This document shows, one piece after another, positions 24,253-39,844 of a stretch of DNA of 40,587 nucleotides. Both the position numbers and the translations under genes were made by a program. Source of the stretch: a bacterium (GTDB lineage: Bacteria; Hydrothermota; Tepidihabitantia; B3-TA06); the NCBI GenBank assembly GCA_012517375.1, contig JAAYVC010000072.1, positions 1 to 40,587 of the forward strand, in the 5' to 3' direction. The notes under the pieces were generated by a model that was not told the origin of the DNA, did not search any database, and saw only the letters and a program-made list of their open reading frames with translations. Each line of letters starts with the position of its first letter. Position 1 is the stretch's first letter.

Positions 24253-24804
24253 CTACTCCCCGAAGACCTCGCCCGAGAAGACGAACAGCTCGGTGTCCTC
24301 GTCATGCCAGCAGGAGGAGGGCAGACCTGCCTTGCGGCAGGTGTGGGCGAGAAACGTGTCGCGGTCCCAGCCCTCTTCGACAGGTACCTGCGGGAGCAGG
24401 ACGCCCTGGTAAGGACCTTTGCGTACTAAGAGTCCGTGCTTGCCGACCTGGACTTCCGAAGGATTGTCTATCTGACGCAGAGGCGAAAGAACGGTGATTT
24501 CGATGTCTATTTTCGGATACTCGGCTGGCGAAAGAGGTGGAAATCGCGGGTCGCCGAACGCGGCTGAACGCGCCATCTCGGCAACGGTCAGATAGAGCGG
24601 CTTGTACCCAACGATATAACCTATGCATCCGCGAAGCATGCCGCGGATATGAAGGGTAACGAACGCACCCTGCTTCTCGGCAAGACGGGCGGTCAAGGGC
24701 CGCTCTGGATTCCAGAAGTTGTCATCCAGCTTTTCCTTTATAGCCCTGCGCGCAATACGGAGAAGTTCGGCGCGTTCCTCGTGTGTAAGAGCTTCTTCAA
24801 TCAT
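24253..24804 (-). CDS. amrA: AmmeMemoRadiSam system protein A (AMMECR1 family)
   Basis: This 183-residue AMMECR1-domain protein contains the invariant LRGCIGY motif (residues 58-64) followed by RSAAFGDPRFPPLSPAEYP. It is the downstream partner of the Memo-like gene. The ATG at 24804 lies 3 bp after that gene's stop, with its AGGAG site inside the partner's last codons. AmrA, AmrB and a radical-SAM AmrS usually occur together and are thought to carry out an uncharacterised radical modification. No amrS is present in this window. Confidence 0.92.
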   Translation of the reverse strand: MIEEALTHEERAELLRIARRAIKEKLDDNFWNPERPLTARLAEKQGAFVTLHIRGMLRGCIGYIVGYKPLYLTVAEMARSAAFGDPRFPPLSPAEYPKIDIEITVLSPLRQIDNPSEVQVGKHGLLVRKGPYQGVLLPQVPVEEGWDRDTFLAHTCRKAGLPSSCWHDEDTELFVFSGEVFGE

Positions 24805-24807
24805 AAT

Positions 24808-25632
24808 TTATGCTCCTGTAAAAGCGAATGCAGAATAGCCAACCACGTACCCTGAGCGCATTCCGGTAACGTCGTTCGAGTTGTAAGCTGCAAGAAGTCG
24901 AGCCTTTGTGATTCCAAGACTTGCGGAAGCCTTAAGAAAGGCAACAAGCCCGTCACCGCCGCATGCTGCGGCTTCGCCCGAACCTAAAGCGCCTTGAAGT
25001 CCTTCTGCATCGACGTTGGATACGTAACTTATGGTTTTCTCGTCGGATTTCCTGCATTCATCGTACGACTCGCCGTGGTAGAGGTCGGTTGAAACAAGGA
25101 CAATAATGTCAGGGTTTGAGCCTACGATTTCAATCAGAGCATCGGCAAGAATGTTAGCATGCCCGGAGTAAGGGGGTGTAAGTATTGGAACTATCTTGAC
25201 ATGCGGAAGAACGGATGCGAGAGGAGGTATTTGGACTTCGAGGGAATGTTCGGCCTGGTGAGCGCTTATCTCAACCTGAAAAGCCTTGTCGAATTCGAGA
25301 AATCTTCGTGAGATTTTGGAGTCGACCTCGAGGCCGCCGAGAGGGGAGTTCCAGACACCTTCTGGAAAGACCTGTAAGGAGCGAACCATAACATGATGCT
25401 GAGGTCCAATCATCACTACCGATTCTATGCTACGATTTTTCAGTTGGTTATACGCCTCGGCAGCCGCCTGGCCCGAGTATATCCATCCGGCATGCGGTAC
25501 CTGTATCCCTTTCACGGGTTCATCTATTCTGGCGGTGGCGCATCTTTCAAAAAAAACGCTCCACATCCTCTGAGCCTCCTGGGGGTCGGATGGATAAAAT
25601 TGATCTGCCCACATCGGCTTGCGTATCTTCAT
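24808..25632 (-). CDS. amrB: AmmeMemoRadiSam system protein B (Memo family)
   Basis: This 274-residue Memo-family protein shows the non-haem-iron dioxygenase-like motifs VPHAGWIYSGQAA, IGPQHHVMV, QAEHSLEVQIP and STDLYHGESYDE, which supply the conserved histidines. I start at the second ATG (25632), because the first (25644) creates a GGAGGAGGAG tract that is a perfect ribosome binding site for the second, and MKIRKP is the usual Memo N-terminus. It overlaps functionally and physically with amrA downstream. Confidence 0.91.
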   Translation of the reverse strand: MKIRKPMWADQFYPSDPQEAQRMWSVFFERCATARIDEPVKGIQVPHAGWIYSGQAAAEAYNQLKNRSIESVVMIGPQHHVMVRSLQVFPEGVWNSPLGGLEVDSKISRRFLEFDKAFQVEISAHQAEHSLEVQIPPLASVLPHVKIVPILTPPYSGHANILADALIEIVGSNPDIIVLVSTDLYHGESYDECRKSDEKTISYVSNVDAEGLQGALGSGEAAACGGDGLVAFLKASASLGITKARLLAAYNSNDVTGMRSGYVVGYSAFAFTGA

Positions 25633-25700
25633 CTCCTCCTCCATGATTAAGTCAGTCCTGAAACAGGGCAGGCTTTCTCAGCCTTCGACTTTACGGATTA

Positions 25701-25974: not shown

Positions 25975-26664
25975 TTAGAGTTTTTTAACGCGTTCAATAT
26001 CTTCGTCTCGGCCTATTAAGACAAGCGTGTCGCCTTCCCTTATCTCGTCTTCCGCACCAGGGGCAATGTTTATCTTGTCCTCGATATCGGGCAGTCCCTT
26101 CTTGGAGATTGTTGGAACCTTGCTTTTTATCGCGATGACGTTGACCCCGAATCGCTTGCGGAGGTGTATCTCGACAAGCTTCTTCCCGATAGTCTCCTTG
26201 GGCGCGGCTATCTCGACCAGGCTGTACTCCTCACTCAGCTCTATCACATCGAATATGTGCGGCGAGAGAAGGTTTTCCACGACCCTTACCGCCATATCCC
26301 TTTCGGGAAAAACAATCTTATCTGCCCCGATTCGCCTCAAGAGCTTTGCATGCTGCTCGTCCGTAACCTTTACTATTACCTCTGGAACGCCGATCTCCTT
26401 GAGAAGCATGGTTACGAGCAGGCTGTCGGCAATCGACTCGCCGAAGCTTACGAGCGCCGTGTCGACTTCGTCAACCCCTGCATCTCTTAAGGATTTTGCA
26501 TCAGTAGCGTCGAGTTCGACGGCGTTGGACAGCTCGTTTCCGATTTCTTCTACCTTTTGCGAGTCATGGTCGCAGGCAAGCACCTCGTAGCCTCTCTTCG
26601 CAAGCTCCCGGGCTACGGCGGAACCGAATTTGCCAAGGCCTATCACGGCAAATTTTTTGGACAT
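25975..26664 (-). CDS. ktrA: KtrA/TrkA-type potassium channel gating subunit
   Basis: This 229-residue RCK protein has an N-terminal NAD/ATP-binding Rossmann fold (VIGLGKFGSAVARELAKRGY, ending in the acidic ACDHD) and a C-terminal RCK_C domain from about residue 145 (YSLVEIAAPKETIGKKLVEI, then INVIAI-like strands). Length and single-RCK design fit KtrA, a cytoplasmic octameric ring that gates KtrB in response to ATP/ADP. It follows two KtrB genes on the same strand. Confidence 0.9.
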   Translation of the reverse strand: MSKKFAVIGLGKFGSAVARELAKRGYEVLACDHDSQKVEEIGNELSNAVELDATDAKSLRDAGVDEVDTALVSFGESIADSLLVTMLLKEIGVPEVIVKVTDEQHAKLLRRIGADKIVFPERDMAVRVVENLLSPHIFDVIELSEEYSLVEIAAPKETIGKKLVEIHLRKRFGVNVIAIKSKVPTISKKGLPDIEDKINIAPGAEDEIREGDTLVLIGRDEDIERVKKL

Positions 26665-26799
26665 TCAGTTTGCCTCTTTATTAGTATGGGTCAGACAATC
26701 CTCACTATGAATGTGTTCACGTCGAGATTTTACAACCGAGCTAAAAAAAGTCAAGCGCGCAACCTGAGCTCCCCAATAAGGATAAATCCTGAATCTAGT

Positions 26800-28137
26800 C
26801 TACCCGACATAGATATCCTCCCTTGCAAACTTGAACGAAACCTTTTTCGGCTCTCCAAGCAGCGAAAATCCTATTGCCAATGGCCCAATCCTGCCAATAA
26901 ACATGGTCAGACTGAGGAGGACACGTCCTACAGGGGTAAGATTCGCGGTAATTCCGGTGGACAAGCCGCCGTTTCCGAAAGCTGAAATTACTTCAAAAAG
27001 AATCTGCATAAAGGTTCCTTTTTCCGTAAAGACCAGAGCGAGCGTGATTATTGCGACCAGCAGCAGAGAAAGTGACGCAATAGCGAAGGATGTATCAATC
27101 AACTCAGGAGGGATGCGTCTTTTGTATATGTTGGCATCAGGGCTTCTCTTAAGAAGTGACAGAACGAAAAGGATGATGACCCCGAAGGTCGTGGTCTTTA
27201 TGCCTCCTCCGGTGCTTCCCGGTGAGGCGCCGATGAACATGAGTATCATGAGGAAGAAGAGACTCGGGGCCATCAGGCCGCCGACGTCGACGGTATTGAA
27301 TCCGGTTGTCGTTTCAGCGGACACAGCCTGGAAGAACGCGTTCATAAGCTGTCTGCCTATTGGGAGATTCGATCTTCCGAGTTCCGAAAAGAAAACAACA
27401 AAGGTGCCTATTACGACAATAACCGCCGTTACCGTAAGCACCATCTTGGTGTGCAGCGACAGCCTGTGAGGCCACTTCCTGGCTATGGTTTTCTGGGATT
27501 GACGGTACATGTCGAAAAGGACGAAGAAGCCGACTGCGCCGGCAATGGAAATCACTTCTTCAACGAGGTTTACGTAAACGCTAGCCTGGCACGAAACAAG
27601 GCTGTCCGGGAAAAGTCCGAATCCGGCGGTGCAGAACGCCGACACGGAATGGAAGAAACCGAGCCACAGAGCGCGAGGAAGAGGATAGTAAGACATCCAG
27701 TAAAGGGTCAGGAGCAGGGCGCCGCCTAATTCAAACGCAAGGGTAAAGAGTATTACCGCTTTCGCAAAACTCTTGGTATTGCCTATCGGCGCCCCGGCCA
27801 TGGATTCCTTGAAGCTTGCCTTGCTCACGTGATTCGGTTTCCTGTTCAACGCATAGGCGATAAGTACAATGAAGACCATGAAGCCTATGCCGCCTATCTG
27901 GAAGATAATAAGCATGACTATCTGGCCGAACAGATTGTAAAAGCTGCCCGTGTCCTGCACCACAAGGCCGGTCGTCGAGATGCAGGATGCCGAAGTAAAG
28001 AGCGCATCAATAAAAGACTGCCAAACGCCTTTGGTGTTCGAGATGGGCAACGTCAAAAGGAAAGCCCCCAGAATAGTAATCAGGAGGAAGCCGAGGACGA
28101 CCGATTGCAGGGGCGTCAGTCTGGTGCGCTTTTTCAC
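26800..28137 (-). CDS. ktrB: KtrB/TrkH-type potassium channel subunit (copy 1)
   Basis: This 445-residue membrane protein has four M1-P-M2 repeats whose pore loops are all visible: STTGLVV, CTAGFGLF, TTTGFNTVD and GNGGLSTGI, each with the filter glycine. The C-terminus REDIYVG is the usual KtrB ending. It starts at GTG 28137. It lies 135 bp upstream of ktrA and probably forms the membrane channel of that system. Confidence 0.9.
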   Translation of the reverse strand: MKKRTRLTPLQSVVLGFLLITILGAFLLTLPISNTKGVWQSFIDALFTSASCISTTGLVVQDTGSFYNLFGQIVMLIIFQIGGIGFMVFIVLIAYALNRKPNHVSKASFKESMAGAPIGNTKSFAKAVILFTLAFELGGALLLTLYWMSYYPLPRALWLGFFHSVSAFCTAGFGLFPDSLVSCQASVYVNLVEEVISIAGAVGFFVLFDMYRQSQKTIARKWPHRLSLHTKMVLTVTAVIVVIGTFVVFFSELGRSNLPIGRQLMNAFFQAVSAETTTGFNTVDVGGLMAPSLFFLMILMFIGASPGSTGGGIKTTTFGVIILFVLSLLKRSPDANIYKRRIPPELIDTSFAIASLSLLLVAIITLALVFTEKGTFMQILFEVISAFGNGGLSTGITANLTPVGRVLLSLTMFIGRIGPLAIGFSLLGEPKKVSFKFAREDIYVG

Positions 28138-28268
28138 TTAGTCTTTCCCATTAAAGCGCAAAAAGTGGAATAAAAAAAGTAATCCGCAGATAATAGTTCA
28201 GCTCTCATTTTTAAAGGTAATTCCTATGAAAAGTACCCTAGGGATCCTTGCTCTTTTATTAAAACCAT

Positions 28269-29666
28269 CTACCCTACCACTATATTGGCTTTTGCAGGTC
28301 TTACACGGGTGGAACTTCCACCTGAGAAGAGCGCCGAACCAATAGTTATTGTTCCTACTTTGCCGAAGAACATGGTTAATATCAATACCATTTTGCCCCA
28401 GGTGTTGAAATCGGCGGCGAAAGAGAGAACGGGCGAGGTTTTTGACCCCATGGACAGGCCAACGGTTCCGAAGGCGGAGAAAACCTCGAACGCCGAGCGT
28501 GAAATATCTTTTCCACCGTTAAATACTACGCAAAGGAATGTTGATGTCAATACCAGGAGTGCCGAAAGTACCACTATGGTTATGGAACGCTGAACCTGTT
28601 CGGGTTTTATACTCCGCTTGAGCATAACTATCTCGCTGCGGCCCCGAAGCACCCTTATCACCTCGGCCAAAAGAAGCGAAAAGGAGGTCGTCTTAACGCC
28701 CCCGCCCGTCCCACCTGGCGAAGCGCCTATGAACATGAGAATCATCATAAAAAACAGGGTATATGAGCGCATTCCGCCGACGGCTGCGAGGTTGTAACCG
28801 GCAGTGCGCGGGGTTATAGAGGCGAAAAAAGCATTTAGTATCTTGTAGCCTGCGGGGAGGTCCCTGAAGGCGCCGTTCCATTCGGCAATTCCGATGATGA
28901 GGGCTCCAACGCATATGAGTACGGCAGTGGATATCAAAACAAGCTTTGTGTGCGACGCAAGTCTCATGTTTTCGCCCTTTATGCGTTTGTAAATATCGCT
29001 TATAACAATGAACCCCAAACCGCCAGAGATTATTAGAGCCGCTATCACGGGGCCGACAACTGGGTCCTGGGTAAAACGACCAAGGTTATCTGAAAACGTT
29101 GAGAATCCGGCGTTGCAGAAAGCTGAAATCGAGTGAAAAATACCGTAATATGCCGACTGTCCCCACTCCATGCCGTATTTGAACCTGAACCAGAAGGTAA
29201 GAACTAACGCTCCTAGAGCTTCGACGACCAAGGTGACCTTAATGATGGTAAATGCGAAGCGTCTCAGGTTTCCAAAGGATAGGAAGTTTATGGACTCCTT
29301 CATGAGAAGCCTGTGGCGCAGGGTCGCCTTCTGCCCCAGAAGAAAGAAGAAGGCGGATGAAAGGGTCATGTAGCCAAGGCCTCCAATCTGGATGAGTAGG
29401 AGGATAACAATCTGACCGAAAAGTGTGAAGTCGACTGGCGTATCCTTCACGATGAGTCCGGTAACGCAAGTAGCCGAAGTAGACGTAAAAAGGGCATCTA
29501 TGAACGAACACCCGTGCGATGCAAAGGGGAGAGACAGAAGACCCGTTCCCGTGAGTATCATTATGGCGTAGCCCAGCAGAAGGAGTGCGCCAGGGTTAAC
29601 AGCCGAATGAACCTTTAAGGAGCCGGCAAGCGGAAAGCTCTTGAACGCCGATCCTTTCATTCTCAT
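28269..29666 (-). CDS. ktrB: KtrB/TrkH-type potassium channel subunit (copy 2)
   Basis: This protein of about 465 residues is a paralog of the downstream KtrB. Pore loops read ATCVTGLIV, CNAGFSTF, RTAGYNLA and GTVGLSMG, and the C-terminus is NIVVG. Filter variants (CVTG, TVG) differ from copy 1, so ion selectivity or affinity may differ. I choose the ATG at 29666, which overlaps the TGA of the 76-residue ORF as ATGA. GTG 29690 is an alternative but lacks a site. Confidence 0.88.
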   Translation of the reverse strand: MRMKGSAFKSFPLAGSLKVHSAVNPGALLLLGYAIMILTGTGLLSLPFASHGCSFIDALFTSTSATCVTGLIVKDTPVDFTLFGQIVILLLIQIGGLGYMTLSSAFFFLLGQKATLRHRLLMKESINFLSFGNLRRFAFTIIKVTLVVEALGALVLTFWFRFKYGMEWGQSAYYGIFHSISAFCNAGFSTFSDNLGRFTQDPVVGPVIAALIISGGLGFIVISDIYKRIKGENMRLASHTKLVLISTAVLICVGALIIGIAEWNGAFRDLPAGYKILNAFFASITPRTAGYNLAAVGGMRSYTLFFMMILMFIGASPGGTGGGVKTTSFSLLLAEVIRVLRGRSEIVMLKRSIKPEQVQRSITIVVLSALLVLTSTFLCVVFNGGKDISRSAFEVFSAFGTVGLSMGSKTSPVLSFAADFNTWGKMVLILTMFFGKVGTITIGSALFSGGSSTRVRPAKANIVVG

Positions 29667-29893
29667 TTCTTCCACAACTGGATTTTCCACTTAGAAAGCT
29701 TGTTGTCAACAGAGAAGTAAGTACCACATATCCGGCAAGGAATCGACATCATCTTTTTCCTTGGTTGGAGAGTGTCGAAATCTCCGGTTGCGCTCAGTAA
29801 CGACATATCATCCTTTGAGTGTTTTTGAGTTTCAGGCCACGGGAATACGCTTGTAAAGTTGCGATTATCCAGAGATGATTTAAGGATAAACAT
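29663..29893 (-). CDS. 76-residue ORF coupled to ktrB copy 2
   Basis: The ORF begins at ATG 29893, three bases after the PP-loop stop, preceded directly by an AGGGG sequence. Its TGA overlaps the ATG of ktrB copy 2. It contains SIPCRICGTYFSVDNKLSKW near its C-terminus, a CxxC that might bind metal. No family is recognised. The tight coupling on both sides argues that it is translated, but codon and homology evidence are lacking. Confidence 0.45.
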   Translation of the reverse strand: MFILKSSLDNRNFTSVFPWPETQKHSKDDMSLLSATGDFDTLQPRKKMMSIPCRICGTYFSVDNKLSKWKIQLWKK

Positions 29894-29896
29894 CCC

Positions 29897-30931
29897 CTAA
29901 AGCCTAAGTTTTTCGATGTTTACATCTTGAGCAGGCGAAACAGAGATTACCTTTTCTACTCCGTTATGACAAAGAGTTACTTTGATTTCCGGTTCATTCT
30001 TCAAATCCGAATACCGCGCAACAATGCTTGCAGCCCACAGCAAAACTGTGTTTGCTTGCGGGTACTCCGGCAATCCTTGACTGAGGTCGTCCCCGAATGA
30101 TTCAAGGAATAACAGGCCTACGGGGCTGCCTGCCTCTTTTACATCGAGGAATACCCTTGACTTGTCCGGATGACGCAAAAGCTCTTCGTTGTCATTCTGG
30201 TTCTTTCCGACAATGAGCTTTGGACCCAGGGGGTGCCTGAAATGCCTGCCTACCTTGAGGAGCGCAACCTGCTCGTCCGTGAGTTCCAGGGGGCGCTCGA
30301 GTATATCGCGGAGTTTTCTTGAATATCCGGGTTCGGTAAGAAGGCATCCGCCTGAGGGAGTAGCGAACTCGGTGATTCCCCATTTCGATGCGAGTTCAAG
30401 CTGCGGCTTGCGGCCCCTGCCCTGAATGGAGAGGAGTCTTGGGCGATCTATAAGGCCGCTCGTCTCGATTTCGGTAGATGGAAGGAGGGTGGCGGAAAGC
30501 GGACGGAGCAGTCTTCCCTCAAGTCCTGATTCGCGTTCTATGATATCGAGGGAGAGCCGGTTCTGGCTCATAGGCCGCTCGCCAAGCACCTCCCCTGTTG
30601 CAGCCGCATCAAAGCCTTCGGACTCAATTATTCGCTTTGCTTCGCGGAGGAACAGTATCTTGCAGTCTATGCAGGCGTTGAGGGCTCGGCCGAAACCATG
30701 AGGGGGCGACGTAAGCAGAGGCAGATAGTCGTGGAGGGATATCCTTGTCCTGCGGATGCTGATGCCCCATTCGCCGAGATAGCGCTCGCCCGGCAATCCC
30801 GATTCCTTACCAGTAAAAGGGGTCATGAAATGCACTGCCTCGACACGGGCGCCAAGCTCGACAAGGAGTCTTGAAGCAATAAGACTGTCCAGTCCGCCGG
30901 AGAAGAGCAAAAGAATCCGGGGTCTTCTCAC
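29897..30931 (-). CDS. PP-loop ATP pyrophosphatase (MnmA/ThiI-like) with C-terminal domain
   Basis: This 344-residue protein has the PP-loop SGGLDS at residues 11-16. A cysteine pair in NACIDCKILFL and a second conserved cysteine in TPSGGCLLTEP follow, as in MnmA-type thiouridylases. Motifs TGEVLGERPMSQNRLSLDII and RLLRPLSATLLP match a lineage of stand-alone thiolation enzymes annotated as tRNA 2-thiouridylase-like. The last about 110 residues form an extra domain. A tRNA or other thiolation role is likely; the exact substrate is not known. It overlaps the membrane gene upstream by four bases. Confidence 0.8.
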   Translation of the reverse strand: MRRPRILLLFSGGLDSLIASRLLVELGARVEAVHFMTPFTGKESGLPGERYLGEWGISIRRTRISLHDYLPLLTSPPHGFGRALNACIDCKILFLREAKRIIESEGFDAAATGEVLGERPMSQNRLSLDIIERESGLEGRLLRPLSATLLPSTEIETSGLIDRPRLLSIQGRGRKPQLELASKWGITEFATPSGGCLLTEPGYSRKLRDILERPLELTDEQVALLKVGRHFRHPLGPKLIVGKNQNDNEELLRHPDKSRVFLDVKEAGSPVGLLFLESFGDDLSQGLPEYPQANTVLLWAASIVARYSDLKNEPEIKVTLCHNGVEKVISVSPAQDVNIEKLRL

Positions 30932-31632
30932 TTAACTATTCCGATAACCCTCAAAGTTCCTATGGCCCAGTCGTTTACTAGAAAGTAAAGCCTGCCTATG
31001 AGAAGCGATATACGCGACATGACCGTGTATCCGAATGCGGCGCCGAAGGAGACCATGATGAAGATAATACCGACGCGCGACACTCCGCCAAGAAAACCGG
31101 TATGAGGCTTGGAGAAGTAGAAATAGATAAGCGTTGCAACCACGCCCACGAAAAGAAGGATATTGCCGACAATGGTCCAGAGATCATAGCCCTGGGACCA
31201 CAAGGGCAGGAGAGTGGCCTGTATCTGAGGCAGAAGAAAACCCTGAATGCCGCCGGTAATTCCGAGACCCGAGCCGAGACCGACTGCGAATGCTATAGGC
31301 CAGCGGGAAAGCCAGCTTACCTTAGGTCCGAACCAGCGCGTCAGCATGAGAAGGCCGAGAACGGTGGGAATGATGAGTATCAGCGCTTCAGCGAGGCCGT
31401 TGGCTGCATTGACGCCGCCTGTCCTGTACAGCGCGATGTTCTGGAAGAACGGCTTAACCAGAAGTTCCTCCATCGTTGACTTGGCGAGCGTGATAACCAC
31501 GTATGCGGCTGAAGCGCCGACGTACAGATGCTCGGCGAATTTGTACAAAGGATTGTCACGGTAAAGGAAGGAAAGAATTGCTATAGTGAGCGTAGCCGCT
31601 ATCCATATTCCGAGGATTGTTGCGAAGTTCAT
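30928..31632 (-). CDS. Membrane protein of the four-gene cluster (subunit D)
   Basis: This 234-residue protein has about six to seven predicted transmembrane helices with conserved-looking loops YKFAEHLYVGASAAYVVITL near the N-terminus and PHTGFLGGVSRVGIIFIMVSF near the end. It overlaps both neighbours by four bases (ATGA), so translation is coupled. No family of known function is recognised. It is part of the cluster with the FN3/DUF6754-like protein. Confidence 0.75.
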   Translation of the reverse strand: MNFATILGIWIAATLTIAILSFLYRDNPLYKFAEHLYVGASAAYVVITLAKSTMEELLVKPFFQNIALYRTGGVNAANGLAEALILIIPTVLGLLMLTRWFGPKVSWLSRWPIAFAVGLGSGLGITGGIQGFLLPQIQATLLPLWSQGYDLWTIVGNILLFVGVVATLIYFYFSKPHTGFLGGVSRVGIIFIMVSFGAAFGYTVMSRISLLIGRLYFLVNDWAIGTLRVIGIVK

Positions 31633-32507
31633 TTCTTCCTCCTCTGAAAGATATCAACCGCAAAATCAGCGGCCGAGCCTATGAGTATGAGAACGATTAT
31701 TAGAATGTGCGCAGTGGACTGGGCAGGCATTCCGCCGCTGGCCGCGCCGGGTTTTCCAAGAAGAGACTCGTATTCGCTTGCGCCCTTAAGCCCGCCCACG
31801 AGTCCTACGAGCTGGCCCGACTGGATATAGGTGTAGAGTCCAGGAGCGTTGACGCCCGTGACTCCGGCTATTATCTTCTGTCCGAAACGGCCTCCGGCAA
31901 ACTCGACCCACGCATCCACAATGGGTCCGTGCGCGTAGCTCACGAGAAGGGCTATGTCGTTGTAGTTGTGCACGTTCTTCATGATGGGAAAGCTGTCAAC
32001 ACTGACGCCCTTGTAGTCCGAGGGATAAAAATCGCGTATCTCGCGGCCCAGGCCGACCATTACCGCCGTGTAACCAGGGTTGTAGGAAAGGTAAAGGTAG
32101 TCCTTCCCGTACTCTTTATGAAAATGGGGATTACCGGTTTTCTCGTACTCTTTTACGTTGCGGTCGTTGTATTCAGCGGCGATTCTTTCTATGCCCATCT
32201 GTCCCAAAGGCAGTCCCTGCACGATGTGACCCACAAGAAGTATCTTAAGATCCTTCCTGAAGGCATGAGCGGTCATTGCATCCAGCATCGGCTGACACTC
32301 GGGAGAACTCGTTGCATCGTAATCCACTGAAAGCATTAGGACAGACCCGGCGGGGAGCTTTTCGATGGCGTCATAGGCGTCTCGGACTTGTTTGCCTACC
32401 TCGAACGGAATAGGTATCCTTAAAAGCAAGGGAATAAGCACAACCAGGGTGACGAGTATGAATATGACCCGCCGGTCGATTCTGGAAAGCCAATTGATGA
32501 ATTTCAT
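31629..32507 (-). CDS. Membrane-anchored protein of the four-gene cluster (subunit C)
   Basis: This 292-residue protein has an N-terminal anchor (about 14-31), a large soluble domain containing LPAGSVLMLSVDYDATSSPE, ILLVGHIVQGLPLGQMGIER and LGREIRDFYPSDYKG, and a C-terminal helix (about 266-284). The soluble domain therefore faces one side with both ends in the membrane. The gene has a TAGGAGGAAGCGATG start that overlaps the preceding stop. No known family is recognised. Confidence 0.75.
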   Translation of the reverse strand: MKFINWLSRIDRRVIFILVTLVVLIPLLLRIPIPFEVGKQVRDAYDAIEKLPAGSVLMLSVDYDATSSPECQPMLDAMTAHAFRKDLKILLVGHIVQGLPLGQMGIERIAAEYNDRNVKEYEKTGNPHFHKEYGKDYLYLSYNPGYTAVMVGLGREIRDFYPSDYKGVSVDSFPIMKNVHNYNDIALLVSYAHGPIVDAWVEFAGGRFGQKIIAGVTGVNAPGLYTYIQSGQLVGLVGGLKGASEYESLLGKPGAASGGMPAQSTAHILIIVLILIGSAADFAVDIFQRRKK

Positions 32508-32516
32508 CGCTTCCTC

Positions 32517-33308
32517 CTAAGTAGACGAGATGTAGGTTCGCTCAATGCCGAGAATGAGCCTGATGGACATGGCTATTCCGCCCAGGACAAGGCCGATGAA
32601 TATTCCGCGTTGTGCGGCGGTCTGGGGAACCGACATTATCCATTCCTGAATTTGGGGGGCCAGCCGCACGTAGTCCTTGGCGAAGACAAGAACCGCAACC
32701 CCGAAGCCCAATCCGAGTGCTGAGAGTATTACGCCTGCCACAGGCTTGCGGATGACGATGCGGTAAACGCCGGCCGCAGCAATCAGAACGGCAAGCATCA
32801 CCGCCGAAGGCAGTATGCCGATGCTCAACCTGCCTATCATGACAAGAATCGCTGCGATGAGGAGCAGGGTTGCGTCGAACGTTCTTGCGCGGAAGGCGCG
32901 GTAAGCGGCGGAAGCGATAAAGAACGCAAGCAGGGAGAACATCGTTCCCTGCAGCGGAACTATTATCCAGTTATAGACCCAGAAGAAACCGCCAATCTTG
33001 TCTATGGATGAAAGCTCGAAAGGCGAGCCGAAGCGCGCCCAGGTCACTATGCCGGAGACAAGAGTGCCTACTATTCCGACGAGAGTCACAAGACTGAAGA
33101 ACCAGTCGCGCTCCTTGCGCACCATTCTTGTAAGGTGATGCCTGACTAGACTGTCTATTCCAAGGAGCGCCGTGAAACCTCCGATGATGGAGAACCACAC
33201 GAGCATTCGCTGCTCCATGCTCCCGAACGGCTCGCGCGGGATAAAGAAGGTGACTGTGATGAAAACACCCGAAAGGAATGTTATGATGAGTGGAACTGTT
33301 TTTTTCAT
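32517..33308 (-). CDS. Multi-helix membrane protein of the four-gene cluster (subunit B)
   Basis: This 263-residue protein has about eight predicted transmembrane helices with very short loops. A basic cytoplasmic patch (RHHLTRMVRKERDW) follows the second helix. It starts at ATG 33308 with AGGAG upstream and lies 9 bp after the FN3/DUF6754-like gene. No family is recognised. Confidence 0.75.
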   Translation of the reverse strand: MKKTVPLIITFLSGVFITVTFFIPREPFGSMEQRMLVWFSIIGGFTALLGIDSLVRHHLTRMVRKERDWFFSLVTLVGIVGTLVSGIVTWARFGSPFELSSIDKIGGFFWVYNWIIVPLQGTMFSLLAFFIASAAYRAFRARTFDATLLLIAAILVMIGRLSIGILPSAVMLAVLIAAAGVYRIVIRKPVAGVILSALGLGFGVAVLVFAKDYVRLAPQIQEWIMSVPQTAAQRGIFIGLVLGGIAMSIRLILGIERTYISST

Positions 33309-33317
33309 ATCTGGCTC

Positions 33318-34520
33318 CTACAGGGTATTGAAGAATTCAACGAACCGGTTGAAGAAATCGAGCACCCAGTTAGAGGACTCCGGAACCTTGAGCGCTTCCA
33401 GTATCCCGCCTACCGTGCCGAGAAGCGTGCCCGCTAGGAGTAGGAAGATGATGCCTATCTTTGCGATGTCCTCGCTCTTCAGGGAACCCATCAGCTGCGG
33501 CTCGCGGTCGATGTAGGCGGATGCAGCGTACAGTTCTTCTCCGAGAAGGGTGTAGTCGCAAGCGGCTACGAAAAACGGCAGCTGCGTAACCATGGATGTT
33601 CCGGCAATCTGTATGGCGCCAACGCTGTGGCCTGTTTCGGCGAGGATAAGCGCCTCGGCGTAAAAAGTTCCCTGCAGGAAAACGGTGCCGGGCTTTTCCC
33701 TTATCAGGATACCGTCGACACCCGCTGCGTAACCAAACTGGTCGGCAGTGAGAAACGAAATATCATCCTCCCTGTAAAGATCGGGCCTGCCCGCTTCCAT
33801 GAAAGCCTGCTTGACCGTCTCCTGCGCAGCCGTCATGACTATCGGGTCGCAGTTGGGTATGATGAGGCGGGTTTCGTACTGGGCGGCGCGCTTGGCTATT
33901 CTTCTGAGAATGGAGAGGGCGGCAAGCGTAGCCAGATCGGTAAGCCCGCCTATGCCGAAGGTGAAAAGGATAGGCTTGCCCATCTCGGTGGAGCGGCCCA
34001 CGGCTTCGTCCACCGCGTCAAGACCGGCGATGCGCCGGATGAACATGTTGCGGTTTCGCTTGGCAAGCTCTATGTAGAGTATTACCACAAATCCGTAAAC
34101 CACAGCCACGATAAGAACCGCCCAGCGGGCCTTATTGAACCAGTGAGCCTTGGACTGAACAGGCCCGGCAATGAGAGACGGAGCGGTTTGACCGTCGTTG
34201 GACTCTGCATCCACCCGGTAGTAGTAGTCAACCTTGTCCCGAAGCGCGGTGGTGTCGTTGTCGGTGTAATAGAAGACGGGCGTGACGAACTCAACAACCT
34301 TCGTGAAAGGTCCGGAGGCGGATTGGGCGCGGTACACGGTATAGGTTTTGATGCGCGCCGAATCCCGAGAAGGATTCCAGGAAAGCTCTATGCTCCTTCC
34401 GGCGTCGTTTGGTGTATCCTCTGCTGCAAGCTCCGTTACAGGCGCTGGAGGCTCAAGTTTCACCGACGAATCCGGAGGAGGAGTCTGGGCTATAAATAAA
34501 AGCAATATCCCCAAGATCAC
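33318..34520 (-). CDS. FN3-domain plus DUF6754-like membrane protein (subunit A)
   Basis: This 400-residue protein has a signal sequence, an extracytoplasmic fibronectin type III domain (about 25-125: ELSWNPSRDSARIKTYTVYR, then YYYRVDAESNDGQ), a transmembrane helix (about 131-150) and a conserved cytoplasmic-looking region with GKPILFTFGIGGLTDLATLA, LIIPNCDPIVMTAAQE and QIAGTSMVTQLPFF, ending in another helix. This conserved region resembles DUF6754. It starts at GTG 34520 with AGGAGGAG upstream. It heads the four-gene operon and diverges from padR. Confidence 0.8.
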   Translation of the reverse strand: MILGILLLFIAQTPPPDSSVKLEPPAPVTELAAEDTPNDAGRSIELSWNPSRDSARIKTYTVYRAQSASGPFTKVVEFVTPVFYYTDNDTTALRDKVDYYYRVDAESNDGQTAPSLIAGPVQSKAHWFNKARWAVLIVAVVYGFVVILYIELAKRNRNMFIRRIAGLDAVDEAVGRSTEMGKPILFTFGIGGLTDLATLAALSILRRIAKRAAQYETRLIIPNCDPIVMTAAQETVKQAFMEAGRPDLYREDDISFLTADQFGYAAGVDGILIREKPGTVFLQGTFYAEALILAETGHSVGAIQIAGTSMVTQLPFFVAACDYTLLGEELYAASAYIDREPQLMGSLKSEDIAKIGIIFLLLAGTLLGTVGGILEALKVPESSNWVLDFFNRFVEFFNTL

Positions 34521-34645
34521 AATACTCCTCCTAGGGTTAGATTATTTCAAGTCTAAAGCTTATACCTGCTTGAGGGGTTGTCAAGTGTTTCTTAAGAGAG
34601 TATATTGAGATTGTTTGGTATATTCCGTTTACTTTCCCGGCATTC

Positions 34646-34673
34646 TGGACAAACTTGGGATTCACCGTATCAT
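34646..34673 (+). promoter_or_regulatory. padR-MFS promoter
   Basis: TGGACA (34646-34651) and TATCAT (34668-34673) are 16 bp apart. Directly downstream, TATCGGA occurs twice 13 bp apart, and the palindrome CGATATCG (34684-34691) overlaps the second copy. This could be the PadR operator, placed where binding would block the start. Confidence 0.5.
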
Positions 34674-34703
34674 TATCGGAAATCGATATCGGAGTTCGTT
34701 AAG

Positions 34704-35006
34704 ATGGATAAGCGGCTAAGACCATTGTATCTGGCATTCATAAAGCTTCACATACTCTGCCTTGCGGCAGAGGAGGAGGTTTACGGCGCCGCTATTAAGG
34801 AAGAGTTCGAGCGTCACGGCTACAATCTCTCGTACGGCACTCTCTATCCTATTCTGCATGGATTGGAGAAGGAAGGATATCTAAAGAGCTGTAAAAGAGT
34901 TGAAATGGGCAAGCAACGCAAATATTATGTACTAACACAGCCGGGCAGGATCTTTTTTAAAAAGGCGAAGGTAAAACTCAAGGAGTTAAGCGAGGAGCTA
35001 CTATGA
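34704..35006 (+). CDS. PadR-family transcriptional regulator
   Basis: This 100-residue winged-helix protein has the PadR features KLHILCLAAEEEVYGAAIKE, LSYGTLYPILHGLEKEGYLK and RKYYVLTQPGR. The ATG at 34704 has GGAG 9 bases upstream; the frame is open further upstream but has no site and would exceed family length. It overlaps the MFS gene by four bases (ATGA) and probably controls that exporter. Confidence 0.88.
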   Translation: MDKRLRPLYLAFIKLHILCLAAEEEVYGAAIKEEFERHGYNLSYGTLYPILHGLEKEGYLKSCKRVEMGKQRKYYVLTQPGRIFFKKAKVKLKELSEELL

Positions 35007-36223
35007 AGAAGGACGGAAGAAACATGCCTAATGAAGAGGTTTTAATCGGAAAGCAGAAGGCGCCTAGCGAGGGTAAACGCAACGTGTTTCTTTTCGGGAT
35101 GATTAGCCTTTTCACGGACATCTCGAGCGAGATGATCTATTCCCTCGTCCCCGGCTTCCTTCGCTCGCTCGGCGCGACGTCCACTCTCATAGGACTCATC
35201 GAGGGAATAGCCGAGGCGACCGCCGCGCTTTCAAAATCCTTCTTCGGATGGCTATCGGACAGGCTAAAGAACCGCAAGCTCTTCGTTTTTCTTGGGTATA
35301 GTTTATCCGCTCTGTCAAAACCATTTCTTTTTCTTGCAGGGCATTGGAGCGCCGTTCTGGGAGTGAGATTTGCTGACCGCACAGGCAAGGGGCTTCGCTC
35401 TCCCGCTCGCGACGCCCTTCTTTCGCAGTCTGTTTCCGCAAAACGCCGGGGGCTCGGCTTCGGGTTCCAGCGCGCGATGGACAACCTTGGCGCTGCATCA
35501 GGACCCTTGCTCGCGATGCTGATTCTCTATCTCTCGCACAACAACATGCGGCTCGTTTTCCTACTCTCAGTTATCCCGGCGCTTATTGGCGTATCCTTCA
35601 TCTTCTTTGTAAGGGAGATTCGCTCGCTTTCGAGGACGGTGAAGGAAGCGAGGAAGGACGGCCCGCTGGACGCACGCTTCATCTGGTTCTCTATTGCGAT
35701 GGTCGTGTTCACGCTCGGCAACTCATCTAACGCATTCCTTTTATTGAGGGCGCAGGACTCGGGTATAAGCCTGTCGCTCGTTCCCTTGATTTGGACGGTC
35801 TACAGCGCAGTTGCCGCATTATCGAGCCCTGTGTTCGGACATCTCTCAGATAAGATTGGCAGGCGCTGGGTCATTCTTGTTTCCTTCGTTGTTTACTCCG
35901 CCGTCTACTTCCTTTTCGGGAACTTCTCGACGCCTCTGGCTATGTGGCTACTCTTTGCTGCATACGGAGTCCATCACGGGCTTTCGGAGGGCGTTTTCCG
36001 CGCATTCATCGCGGACCTGATTCCAGCAGAGCGCCGCGCTACCGCCTACGGGATTTATGAGACCATGATAGGACTCGCGCTCTTTCCTGCAAGCCTCATC
36101 TTCGGGCTTTTGTGGGATAAGCTTTCGCCGCAAATAGCGTTCTACACGGGCGCAGGCCTGTCCCTTCTCGCAGGGGTTATCTTTATCGTGACGCAAAGGG
36201 GGAGGAGGGGTGTGGATGACTGA
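35003..36223 (+). CDS. MFS transporter
   Basis: This 406-residue protein has about twelve transmembrane helices. Motif A variants GWLSDRLKNRK (first half) and GHLSDKIGRRW (second half) are both present, along with FADRTGKGLRSPARDALLS, typical of a bacterial MFS subgroup with an N-terminal FTDISSEMIY. Coupled to PadR, it is most likely a drug or toxic-compound exporter; the substrate is unknown. Confidence 0.87.
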   Translation: MKKDGRNMPNEEVLIGKQKAPSEGKRNVFLFGMISLFTDISSEMIYSLVPGFLRSLGATSTLIGLIEGIAEATAALSKSFFGWLSDRLKNRKLFVFLGYSLSALSKPFLFLAGHWSAVLGVRFADRTGKGLRSPARDALLSQSVSAKRRGLGFGFQRAMDNLGAASGPLLAMLILYLSHNNMRLVFLLSVIPALIGVSFIFFVREIRSLSRTVKEARKDGPLDARFIWFSIAMVVFTLGNSSNAFLLLRAQDSGISLSLVPLIWTVYSAVAALSSPVFGHLSDKIGRRWVILVSFVVYSAVYFLFGNFSTPLAMWLLFAAYGVHHGLSEGVFRAFIADLIPAERRATAYGIYETMIGLALFPASLIFGLLWDKLSPQIAFYTGAGLSLLAGVIFIVTQRGRRGVDD

Positions 36224-36269: not shown

Positions 36270-37103
36270 ATGGAGTATCCCTTAGATGAGATCATTTGTG
36301 GAGATTGTGAAAAAGTTCTTAAAGACTTCCCAGATGATAGTATTGATCTTATCGTCACTTCTCCGCCGTATGCCGACAGCCGCGAAAAAACCTATGGCGG
36401 AATAAATCCTAATGAATACGTGTCATGGTTCTTGCCCCGGGCGGAACAATTCCTTAGGATTTTAAAACCAACAGGTACTTTCATCCTGAACATTAAAGAA
36501 AGAGTAGTTGCTGGGGAAAGACATACATACGTTATCGAATTGATTCTTGAGTTGAGAAAACAAGGTTGGTTATGGACTGAAGAATTCGTCTGGCATAAAA
36601 AAAACTGCTACCCAGGAAAGTGGCCCAATCGTTTCAGGGATGCGTGGGAGAGATGTCTGCAATTCAACAAGGATAAGAGATTTAACATGTATCAGAATAA
36701 CGTAATGGTTCCAATGGGTAAGTGGGCAGAAACAAGATTAAAAAGGTTAAGCGATACTGACCAGATAAGAGATGAATCTAAGGTCAACAGTGGTTTTGGA
36801 AAGAATATCTCAAACTGGGTTGGGCGCGAAAAGGTTTACCCGACAAATGTACTTCATTTAGCTACAGAATGTGGTAATCGCGAACACAGTGCTACTTTTC
36901 CTGTAGCTTTGCCTGAGTGGTTCATAAAGCTTTTCACTCAACCTGGTGATGTGGTACTTGACCCCTTTATAGGTTCAGGCTCCACAGCCATTGCGGCTTT
37001 GAATCTAAACAGACACTTCATTGGCATTGATGTTTTGGAGGAATATTGCGAACTGGCACGAAACGCACTCAGAACCATGCCTCAAAGGAAATTGCCGATA
37101 TGA
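36270..37103 (+). CDS. Type II DNA methyltransferase (beta class, permuted)
   Basis: This 277-residue methyltransferase has catalytic TSPPY at residues 30-34 before the SAM motif DPFIGSGST at 231-239, the beta-class order used by N4-cytosine and some N6-adenine enzymes. The SPPY form favours N4-cytosine, but this cannot be settled by eye. It overlaps the endonuclease gene by four bases (ATGA), so methylase is made first and the nuclease is translationally coupled. Confidence 0.88.
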   Translation: MEYPLDEIICGDCEKVLKDFPDDSIDLIVTSPPYADSREKTYGGINPNEYVSWFLPRAEQFLRILKPTGTFILNIKERVVAGERHTYVIELILELRKQGWLWTEEFVWHKKNCYPGKWPNRFRDAWERCLQFNKDKRFNMYQNNVMVPMGKWAETRLKRLSDTDQIRDESKVNSGFGKNISNWVGREKVYPTNVLHLATECGNREHSATFPVALPEWFIKLFTQPGDVVLDPFIGSGSTAIAALNLNRHFIGIDVLEEYCELARNALRTMPQRKLPI

Positions 37104-37873
37104 AACAGTTGGATTTCGTCAAACCTCTTGATTTGAAGGAGGTTGAGAAATTTGTTGCTTCACATATAGCGAAGTTTCACCAAAGACGTCTTGAAAGTGC
37201 AGGCAAGATGGATTTGAAAGCTATCCTGAAGCGTAAAAATCCTTATTTGTTTAGAGCCAAGAATATGAACCGTGCGGGTGATTTGATAAACGGATTCCTT
37301 GATGCCGCGATTTCTTCCTCAGAGGAAGAGATATTCGGTGACTTCCTTGAGGATTTGGCTATATTTATTGCAAAAGAAACTTATGGTGCAGAGAAATCGC
37401 CTGCGCCGGGAATTGACTTTCAATTCAACAAAGATGGTATTACATATATTGTTTCAGTCAAATCAGGACCCAACTGGGGAAATAGTTCTCAACAAGATAA
37501 GCAAGAGGAAAACTTTAAAAGGGCAACAAAGGTTCTTAAGGGTTCAAGCCATACACGTCACGTAGAGGCTATCCTGGGTATCTGCTACGGAAAAACAAGA
37601 ACAACTAGCCTTCGCGGCTACCAGAAGATTGTAGGTCAAAACTTCTGGTATTTCATCAGCGGAAACGAGAATCTTTATACAGATATTATCAAACCTTTAG
37701 GGCACAGAGCGAAAGAATGCAACGAGGAATTCCAAGCTAAAAGAGATGCATTGGCTAACCGCCTTACTATGGAATTCATGAAAGAGTTCTGTGACGAAAA
37801 TGGCTACATCAATTGGATTAGGTTGATTCAACTTAACAGTGGGAATTTACACCTGAACCCCATAATTCACTAA
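37100..37873 (+). CDS. PmeII-like type II restriction endonuclease
   Basis: This 257-residue protein shows the pattern of PmeII-type endonucleases: KAILKRKNPYLFRAKN, SSSEEEIFGDFLEDLAIFI and GIDFQF...SVKSGPNWGNSSQ. Asp106, Ser119 and Lys121 fit a PD-(D/E)XK-type core with D-x12-SVK. It starts at ATG 37100 within the methylase stop; an upstream in-frame GTG-type start is disfavoured. It and the methylase form a complete type II system. Confidence 0.85.
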   Translation: MKQLDFVKPLDLKEVEKFVASHIAKFHQRRLESAGKMDLKAILKRKNPYLFRAKNMNRAGDLINGFLDAAISSSEEEIFGDFLEDLAIFIAKETYGAEKSPAPGIDFQFNKDGITYIVSVKSGPNWGNSSQQDKQEENFKRATKVLKGSSHTRHVEAILGICYGKTRTTSLRGYQKIVGQNFWYFISGNENLYTDIIKPLGHRAKECNEEFQAKRDALANRLTMEFMKEFCDENGYINWIRLIQLNSGNLHLNPIIH

Positions 37874-38047: not shown

Positions 38048-39844
38048 ATGGGTCCAAAAAAGAGAGTATCTCCGGACTTAGATCCGCATCCATTTAACGT
38101 AATTTACATAAAGAATCCCTCTCAGGAGCAGTTGCGCCGCATGGCAATAGAGCACACGCCCGCCTGCTACACTACAAAGCACGGCAACGTGAACAAGATT
38201 GCCCGCAACAAGGCTCGCATGGCCAACTATACTTATATCATAGCCCCGGAGGAGGATAAGGCAAAGTATTCTGGAAACTTAATTGCGCCCGAGAAGGCTG
38301 AACAACTGCTGTGCGCGGTATGGGACTACATCGAGCGCCAGGGCAGGCTTATCGAGATACAGGGCTACTACGGCCTTTCAGAGAACGCCTCCGAGCGTTT
38401 TCCTATCCAATGGCTTTACACAATGCCTGCAGCAAACGTTGCGGGAATGCAGCAGGTACTTACGTTTCCGAGGGAGGACGTGGAGACCTCGGAGGAACGC
38501 TCGCAGGTATTCAAGCCCGTCATCCGCGTGGTCATGGTCCCCGAGTTTCCCTTATGCGATATGCCCGGCAAGCAGGCTATGTTAGTTGATCTTGAGAACT
38601 GGACCACCTGGGTCATAGGCGCCGATTACTTCGGGGAATCCAAGAAGGGCGCGCTCCGCATGCTTAACGACTACGTATACCAGCGCGGCGGATTGGTTCT
38701 CCATGCAGGAGCCAAGGCGGTATCGATCCAGGGCAAGCGTGTAACAATGGCGCTTCTTGGTCTCTCTGGAACGGGCAAGACGACAACGACATTCTCCAAA
38801 CAGGGCGATACCAGCGAACCCATTCAGGACGACATGATATGCCTCTGGCCGAACGGTCGTATTTCGATTACGGAGAACGGCGCATTCGCAAAAACCTTCG
38901 GGTTAACGAGGCAGACAGAACCGATTATTTACAGAGGGTCGCTGGACAGCGCCGCATGGGTCGAGAACGTATATACGGATGCCGAAGGAGCGTACGACTT
39001 CTCAAAGAGCCGCATGACGGTCGAAGAGGTTCGCAGGTTCAGGACCTATCTCGTAATAACGGGCGCATCGGCGGAGAACATAGACGCATACATATCAGGA
39101 AAGGTCCGCTTCGAGGACAAAGTGGACGAGTACGGCACTCCTGCAGACGGTTGGGACTTCCTCGTCTGGACGCAGAACGGCCGCTCCGTAATCCCCATGT
39201 CAAAGATTGAGGGTGCGGCAGATTTACTGGACATACCTCCGCTTCAATCGATAGGGCTTCTTAACCGCGACGAGGGTCCTGACGCAGCAACACCCGGGAT
39301 TGTCAGGTTCGTATCCATGGATCAGGCGGCCGCCTACTTCATGCTTGGCGAGACCTCAAAGACATCGGCAGCAGGCAAGGAACGCGGAAAAACCCGCTCC
39401 CCATTCACCCAGCCTTTCTTTCCGCGCGCAATGGGTCTTCAAGCGGTTCGATTTTCGGAACTTGCCAAGGATATTGACGATCTTGAAACCTGGATGATGA
39501 ACACGGGCTACGTCGGCGGAGACCAGCTTGACGTTGATGCAGGCAAGGCGTTGAAGGTGAAGATAAAGCATTCTTCGGCCATGCTCGAGGCGATGCTTGC
39601 AAAGAAGATCGTCTGGAAGCTTGACCCCGATTTCGGATACGAGATAGCGGATGTGGATAATCCGAAGAACGCGGAGCTTTTAGCCAAGGTACCGAAGGAA
39701 GTGTTGAACCCCATGCTTTTCTTCGAACGCACGGGCAAGATGGACATCTACAAAGCCTGGGTCAAAAAGATGAAGGAGGAGCGAAGGGCGTTTCTCGAGA
39801 AGTACAAGGTTGACCCGAAGATAATAGCGACTATACCGAAATAG
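38048..39844 (+). CDS. pckA: Phosphoenolpyruvate carboxykinase (ATP-type, divergent)
   Basis: This 598-residue protein has the ATP-type PEPCK P-loop LSGTGKTTTT (Gly241-Thr247) and the kinase-2/metal region IQDDMICLWPNGRISITENG followed by AFAKTFGL. It catalyses oxaloacetate + ATP to PEP + CO2 + ADP at the TCA/gluconeogenesis junction. It is longer than the usual about 540 residues and diverges in the DDE(H)GW motif, so a specialised clade is likely. The ATG at 38048 has GGAGG upstream and its own promoter. Confidence 0.88.
   Translation: MGPKKRVSPDLDPHPFNVIYIKNPSQEQLRRMAIEHTPACYTTKHGNVNKIARNKARMANYTYIIAPEEDKAKYSGNLIAPEKAEQLLCAVWDYIERQGRLIEIQGYYGLSENASERFPIQWLYTMPAANVAGMQQVLTFPREDVETSEERSQVFKPVIRVVMVPEFPLCDMPGKQAMLVDLENWTTWVIGADYFGESKKGALRMLNDYVYQRGGLVLHAGAKAVSIQGKRVTMALLGLSGTGKTTTTFSKQGDTSEPIQDDMICLWPNGRISITENGAFAKTFGLTRQTEPIIYRGSLDSAAWVENVYTDAEGAYDFSKSRMTVEEVRRFRTYLVITGASAENIDAYISGKVRFEDKVDEYGTPADGWDFLVWTQNGRSVIPMSKIEGAADLLDIPPLQSIGLLNRDEGPDAATPGIVRFVSMDQAAAYFMLGETSKTSAAGKERGKTRSPFTQPFFPRAMGLQAVRFSELAKDIDDLETWMMNTGYVGGDQLDVDAGKALKVKIKHSSAMLEAMLAKKIVWKLDPDFGYEIADVDNPKNAELLAKVPKEVLNPMLFFERTGKMDIYKAWVKKMKEERRAFLEKYKVDPKIIATIPK

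Follow-up and report, generated by a model that had tools for sequence, protein, structure and literature searches.

The subject of this analysis is a block of four tightly packed open reading frames (ORFs), referred to here as g1 through g4, located on the minus strand at positions 30928-34520 of a 40,587-nucleotide stretch of bacterial DNA (contig JAAYVC010000072.1 of GenBank assembly GCA_012517375.1), hereafter called the window. The window belongs to a 2.54 Mb draft genome, and the named bacteria closest to it are those of candidate division WOR-3. An initial annotation, made from the sequence alone, had described the block as a membrane operon of unknown function and a candidate new system. 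The features of the locus are as follows:

34525..34532, minus strand: Shine-Dalgarno-like AGGAGGAG upstream of the GTG start of g1, read directly from the sequence
33318..34520, minus strand: g1, 400 amino acids; signal/transmembrane segment, fibronectin type III (FN3) domain, transmembrane segment, DUF6754 (PF20539), transmembrane segment
34155..34436, minus strand: FN3 β-sandwich of g1, residues 29-122, supported by AlphaFold, Foldseek, and profile evidence and predicted from flank charges to be extracytoplasmic
33408..34151, minus strand: DUF6754 domain of g1, residues 124-371; six β-α units between two transmembrane helices, predicted to be cytoplasmic
32517..33308, minus strand: g2, a polytopic protein of 263 amino acids from an unnamed family
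31629..32507, minus strand: g3, 292 amino acids; transmembrane segment, α/β domain, transmembrane segment; unnamed family
31749..32354, minus strand: α/β domain of g3, residues 52-253, six β-α units in the AlphaFold model
30928..31632, minus strand: g4, 234 amino acids with about six transmembrane segments; unnamed family
29897..30931, minus strand: PP-loop (ThiI-like) protein with an NFACT-R_2 domain, a lineage-specific neighbor

The start codon of g1 is the GTG at 34520, with AGGAGG positioned a few nucleotides upstream. The spacings are 9 nucleotides between g1 and g2 and between g2 and g3, and both g3/g4 and g4/PP-loop overlap by 4 nucleotides. The four genes thus lie where they were first placed and are indeed near-abutting or overlapping.

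The proteins had been characterized initially as an FN3-bearing, DUF6754-like protein, an eight-helix protein, a double-anchored protein with a large soluble domain, and a six- to seven-helix protein, with an FN3 face directed out of the cytoplasm. This description holds, with one amendment concerning g2. The match of g1 to the Pfam family DUF6754 scores 371.7 bits relative to a cut-off of 27 and covers profile positions 2-249 of 257. Its FN3 domain by itself falls below the Pfam cut-off (20.2 bits versus 25); it is supported by an AlphaFold model of g1 with a predicted local distance difference test (pLDDT) value of 91.8, by Foldseek matches to the FN3 domains of titin and neogenin, and by a titin FN3 profile match with an E value of 2e-22. 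The 50 best Foldseek matches to the whole of g1 were nearly all FN3 domains. An alignment of 60 family members contains 35 invariant columns, many of which are polar (R162, R176, T178, E179, E234, Q261, R274, E289, E295, D322, E328, and E329). The outer arm varies among relatives, which display from one to about five FN3 domains and/or insertions of 150-400 residues that by eye resemble coiled coils, and the majority-residue conservation is 0.69 for DUF6754 versus 0.43 for the arm.

The g2 protein contains about eight hydrophobic segments in the window, as first proposed, but the family is ancestrally six-helical: six segments form its core, and the extra two constitute an insertion that is also found in locus L033. 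Its conserved motifs are SAAYRAFRAR and GIER. The AlphaFold model of g3 (pLDDT 95.6, predicted template modeling score 0.90) reveals a 200-residue α/β domain between two transmembrane segments. About six hydrophobic segments were identified in g4, with the invariant residues E34 and R207 positioned in or beside predicted membrane helices. On the basis of flank charges, the FN3 and g3 domains are predicted to lie outside and DUF6754 inside. The DUF6754 and g3 domains are alike in layout in the AlphaFold models, each formed by six β-α units between transmembrane helices. There is no homology between g2 and g4.

Relatives of the cassette retain a strikingly constant architecture. The order g1-g2-g3-g4 is kept, on the same strand, in 125 of 129, 118 of 121, and 112 of 113 testable steps, and the median gaps in 81 complete cassettes are 12, 0, and 0 nucleotides. 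Recurrence of a single order in these 81 cassettes and in 112-125 testable neighbor steps excludes chance. Several of the exceptions are truncated copies, and locus L134 in genome G049 has one lone g1. At least eleven phylum-level lineages share the arrangement, and cassettes in tandem are frequent among them. Furthermore, the trees of the four proteins agree, with mirror-tree correlations of 0.75-0.85 versus a shuffled maximum of 0.12. The genes do not scatter independently; computed in this way, the unit and its order are those of four genes that co-evolve. Whole-cassette tandem repeats are common, and in the triple arrays of the Zixibacteria, positions 1, 2, and 3 fall into three separate clades. 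The tandem copies (A-B-C) are therefore old and non-equivalent. The PP-loop enzyme, which had been regarded as coupled to the operon, does overlap g4 here, but among the loci first examined it adjoins the cassette only in the window, L033, and L034. It lies outside the conserved unit and, being confined to the window's lineage, was rejected as a fifth subunit.

The computed spread of the cassette is broad. DUF6754 was present in all 61 genomes searched within the host's class. Across the host phylum (WOR-3-like) it was detected in 140 of 147 genomes, at one to seven copies each, and g3 in 144 of the 147. None of 14 control genomes contained DUF6754. The window's own genome carries a second complete cassette on contig C49. 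In a scan of named genomes, at least 528 of 587 pattern matches among those listed were confirmed as relatives, and 80 loci were kept. Carriers among the matches listed include WOR-3/Stahlbacteria, Zixibacteria, Latescibacterota, Poribacteria, Edwardsbacteria, Fermentibacteria/Aegiribacteria, Eisenbacteria, Coatesbacteria, TA06, and Effluviviaceae, together with metagenome-assembled genomes labelled Gemmatimonadaceae, Scalindua, and Deltaproteobacteria. The planctomycete class that contains Scalindua usually has a single cassette, often with adjacent partner genes. A phage origin was considered and set aside, as no viral-contig relative was confirmed. Given that the cassette is kept in nearly all genomes of the phylum and in at least ten other phylum-level lineages, with up to seven copies, its role is likely to be central. 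It probably escaped notice because the carriers found are almost all uncultured.

Two partners lie beyond the boundaries originally drawn for the system, which encompassed the four genes correctly but not a GlmL/MutL-family ATPase (hereafter MutL) or a 375-residue barrel-sandwich protein (BSH). In 49 loci with at least 4 kb of sequence upstream of g1, both genes lie upstream in 21 and at least one in 23. The planctomycete loci display the order U202-MutL-BSH-g1-g2-g3-g4. Mean column identities are 73% for MutL and 63% for BSH. Each is present in 139 of the 147 host-phylum genomes, and G126 and G127, which are 94-95% complete, are without g1, g3, MutL, and BSH together. The module is patchy in the planctomycete class, where DUF6754 and BSH occur together in 53 genomes, singly in 4 and 2, and not at all in 16 (Fisher p 8e-11); for DUF6754 with MutL the corresponding p is 5e-8. 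As computed from these distributions, MutL and BSH are co-inherited with the cassette and have been co-lost in one genus. PF13941 was detected in 12 of 12 genomes picked from distinct lineages.

The partner MutL, at 600-650 residues, scores 420 bits against PF13941 in Pfam. Its score for the GlmL equivalog, a methylaspartate mutase accessory protein, is 226.6 of 475 bits, and it falls below all NCBIfam cut-offs. Matches of BSH to the N-terminal barrel-sandwich domain of RnfC (PF13375) and to Biotin_lipoyl (PF00364) are weak and below cut-off, both with E about 3e-4. A paralogous MutL-BSH fusion is encoded in the window's own genome (L141 3715-6558, minus strand). This second pair, either fused (about 950 residues) or as adjacent genes (L141 3715-6558 and L142 6760-9612, both minus strand; L144-L146), is not beside a cassette in the stretches read and represents a separate paralogous system. 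In the window's genome and its relatives, as well as in Fermentibacteria, the cassette-type MutL gene adjoins gcvPB of glycine cleavage, named by eye (L114 8165-11754, L083, L096, and L151); in some cases U202 separates the two.

Our tentative preference is for a model in which g1-g4 form one four-subunit inner-membrane complex of diderm bacteria that is coupled to ATP through MutL and BSH and acts on a component of the envelope. The membrane core would consist of g2 and g4. The extremely conserved DUF6754 α/β domain of g1 would sit in the cytoplasm, with the variable FN3/coiled-coil arm in the periplasm, where g3 would place a second α/β domain of similar layout. MutL, an ASKHA ATPase, and BSH would be the partners of the complex. 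ATP turnover by MutL may be relayed by BSH to DUF6754, and from there a conformational change could pass via g2/g4 to the g1 arm and g3 domain in the periplasm, which would then move, insert, or assemble an envelope component. The diverged cassettes within one genome may serve different partners or substrates. The envelope role is suggested by the variability of the periplasmic arm and by the carrier lineages, which are mostly diderm. Favoring the model as a whole are the constant gene order and close packing, the agreement of the four trees, the near-universal occurrence in the phylum, the shared inheritance and loss with MutL and BSH, the MutL-BSH fusion, the topology predicted from flank charges, the contrast between a variable arm and a constant DUF6754, and the ancient, non-equivalent tandem cassettes.

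Several observations weigh against this model. In the window's genome MutL and BSH lie on contigs other than that of the cassette, and about half of the testable loci are without either gene nearby. MutL and BSH are kept in genome G073, which has no cassette, and BSH is missing from four planctomycete genomes that contain DUF6754; these are draft assemblies, which may have gaps. In NCBIfam, the GlmL-family proteins of other settings take their names from cobalamin-dependent aminomutases, and the role here may therefore differ. The likeness of the g1 and g3 α/β domains is not accompanied by significant homology (hhalign P 0.13). Finally, for the putative physical association of the four proteins the agreement of their trees is indirect evidence, and the stoichiometry, energy coupling, and envelope substrate of the complex are likewise putative.

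Other roles for the cassette can be envisioned. DUF6754 might be catalytic and make or modify a lipid, glycan, or lipoprotein of the envelope, with no transport involved and with MutL-BSH acting as a reactivase or chaperone. The 35 invariant columns of the DUF6754 protein, many of them polar, and the names of the GlmL family are in keeping with such an enzyme. We consider it unlikely, as no cofactor or catalytic motif was recognized, Foldseek searches with whole g1 and g3 (DUF6754 was not run alone) gave no match to an enzyme fold, and a variable periplasmic arm with two polytopic subunits exceeds what an enzyme would need. Somewhat less probable still is a transmembrane sensor or relay, in which FN3 and g3 would sense the periplasm or surface and signal inward to DUF6754; in WOR-3 the products of downstream genes, DUF4388 and other cytosolic proteins, would receive the signal as well. 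Domains on both faces of the membrane, an outer arm that varies over a constant inner domain, and the presence downstream in WOR-3 of DUF4388 and two small unnamed proteins would all suit a sensor, but it would have no output domain, and in G126, which is without a cassette, the DUF4388 operon is still present (L152).

An accessory function in TonB/ExbBD energy transduction and outer-membrane import was suggested by WOR-3 and Fermentibacteria loci in which ExbB, ExbD, and TonB genes follow the cassette in a run on the same strand, with TonB-dependent receptor genes beside it. This is improbable given that cassette-less genomes retain ExbD, that G126 retains the same DUF4388-ExbB-ExbD-TonB operon, and that TonB genes do not adjoin the majority of cassettes, the inspected planctomycete ones among them. 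TonB/ExbBD was accordingly rejected as an obligate partner: the presence of the cassette does not track ExbD, and the operon is not fixed. A type IX-like secretion motor or translocon was entertained because genomes with a cassette contain many Por_Secre_tail matches (72 in G000). The chance of this is very slight, for sorting tails number 65 in G126 and 50 in G127, neither of which has a cassette, and three of four cassette-bearing planctomycete genomes tested have none, the fourth showing a single weak match. With sorting tails and cassette dissociating in both directions, the link to type IX secretion was dropped. Anti-phage defense was likewise discarded, with no PADLOC model matching, as was an Rnf/Nqr redox pump, since g1-g4 match no Rnf/Nqr family and have no conserved Cys/His ligand set. 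Indeed, the sole His and the sole Cys among the 95%-conserved polar residues of g1-g4 are H267 of g3 and C321 of g1.

That no known secretion or transport system is matched, as noted at the outset, is upheld by broader searches. No consistent Pfam family was obtained for g3, g2, or g4 (61, 40, and 41 members scanned, respectively), no relative of g2, g3, or g4 was found in NCBIfam or PADLOC, and a PDB sequence search with the three gave no match. Foldseek comparison of g3 with the PDB yielded a best query TM-score of 0.33, relative to a criterion of >0.5 over the domain, and the overlaps were generic and Rossmann-like. DUF6754 is not mentioned in the literature searched, nor did any paper there link these families. 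The Pfam entry for DUF6754, the whole of which g1 carries at 372 bits, gives no function and extends neither to the FN3 arm nor to the remaining genes and the ATPase partners. Three of the four subunits thus belong to unnamed families, and g1 is known by a domain of unknown function.

Inner-membrane machines with an ASKHA or actin-like cytoplasmic partner include MreBCD and the PilMNOP proteins of type IV pili. The cassette with its partners would resemble them in combining a cytoplasmic ASKHA protein with inner-membrane proteins that have periplasmic arms, but no sequence relation was found for g2, g3, or g4, and the only MreB-like signal of MutL is weak and below cut-off (E 9e-4). The partner ATPase belongs to the GlmL/MutL superfamily (PF13941, NF040745, TIGR01319), but in the loci read it is tied to BSH and the cassette rather than to an aminomutase; the superfamily thereby gains a second context, much wider than the aminomutases of its name. 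BSH differs from RnfC and Biotin_lipoyl proteins in its length of 375 residues and its fusion to MutL in the paralogue, with no Rnf/Nqr genes seen alongside. ExbB-ExbD-TonB are neighbors of the cassette in two lineages, show no homology to it, and are not obligate. A conserved operon of DUF4388, two small unnamed proteins, two small membrane proteins, ExbB, ExbD, ExbD, and TonB (L129 10423-15544; L152) was observed both with and without the cassette.

The cassette represents a real, widespread, and undescribed system and is judged to differ from every kind described in the resources searched, among which the PMC10849945 catalogue, a systematic survey of new families in uncultivated taxa, was not included. 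It is conceivable, with less assurance than attaches to the four-subunit model itself, that it defines a new class of ATP-coupled inner-membrane machine, in which a GlmL-type ASKHA ATPase and a barrel-sandwich adaptor would drive paired α/β domains on the two membrane faces in building or moving an envelope component. Such a class would be near-universal in WOR-3-like bacteria, and its further carriers would include Zixibacteria, Latescibacterota, Fermentibacteria, Poribacteria, and, among planctomycetes, the class of Scalindua.

Several other genes surround the cassette in the window. Downstream of the PP-loop gene, at 25975-29690 on the minus strand, are two TrkH-type proteins and a TrkA protein; in L033 and L034, too, the PP-loop gene is succeeded by relatives of TrkH and TrkA. 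Memo-like and AMMECR1 genes lie side by side at 24253-25644 (minus strand), and their relatives likewise adjoin in those two loci. Divergent from the cassette, at 34605-36223 on the plus strand, a PadR-type regulator gene overlaps a transporter gene judged by eye to be of the MFS type. It is followed at 36270-37873 (plus strand) by a type II restriction-modification pair consisting of an N6_N4 DNA methylase and an EcoO109I-family endonuclease. The 598-residue ORF at 38048-39844 (plus strand) matches PEPCK_ATP in two stretches and is longer than the profile.

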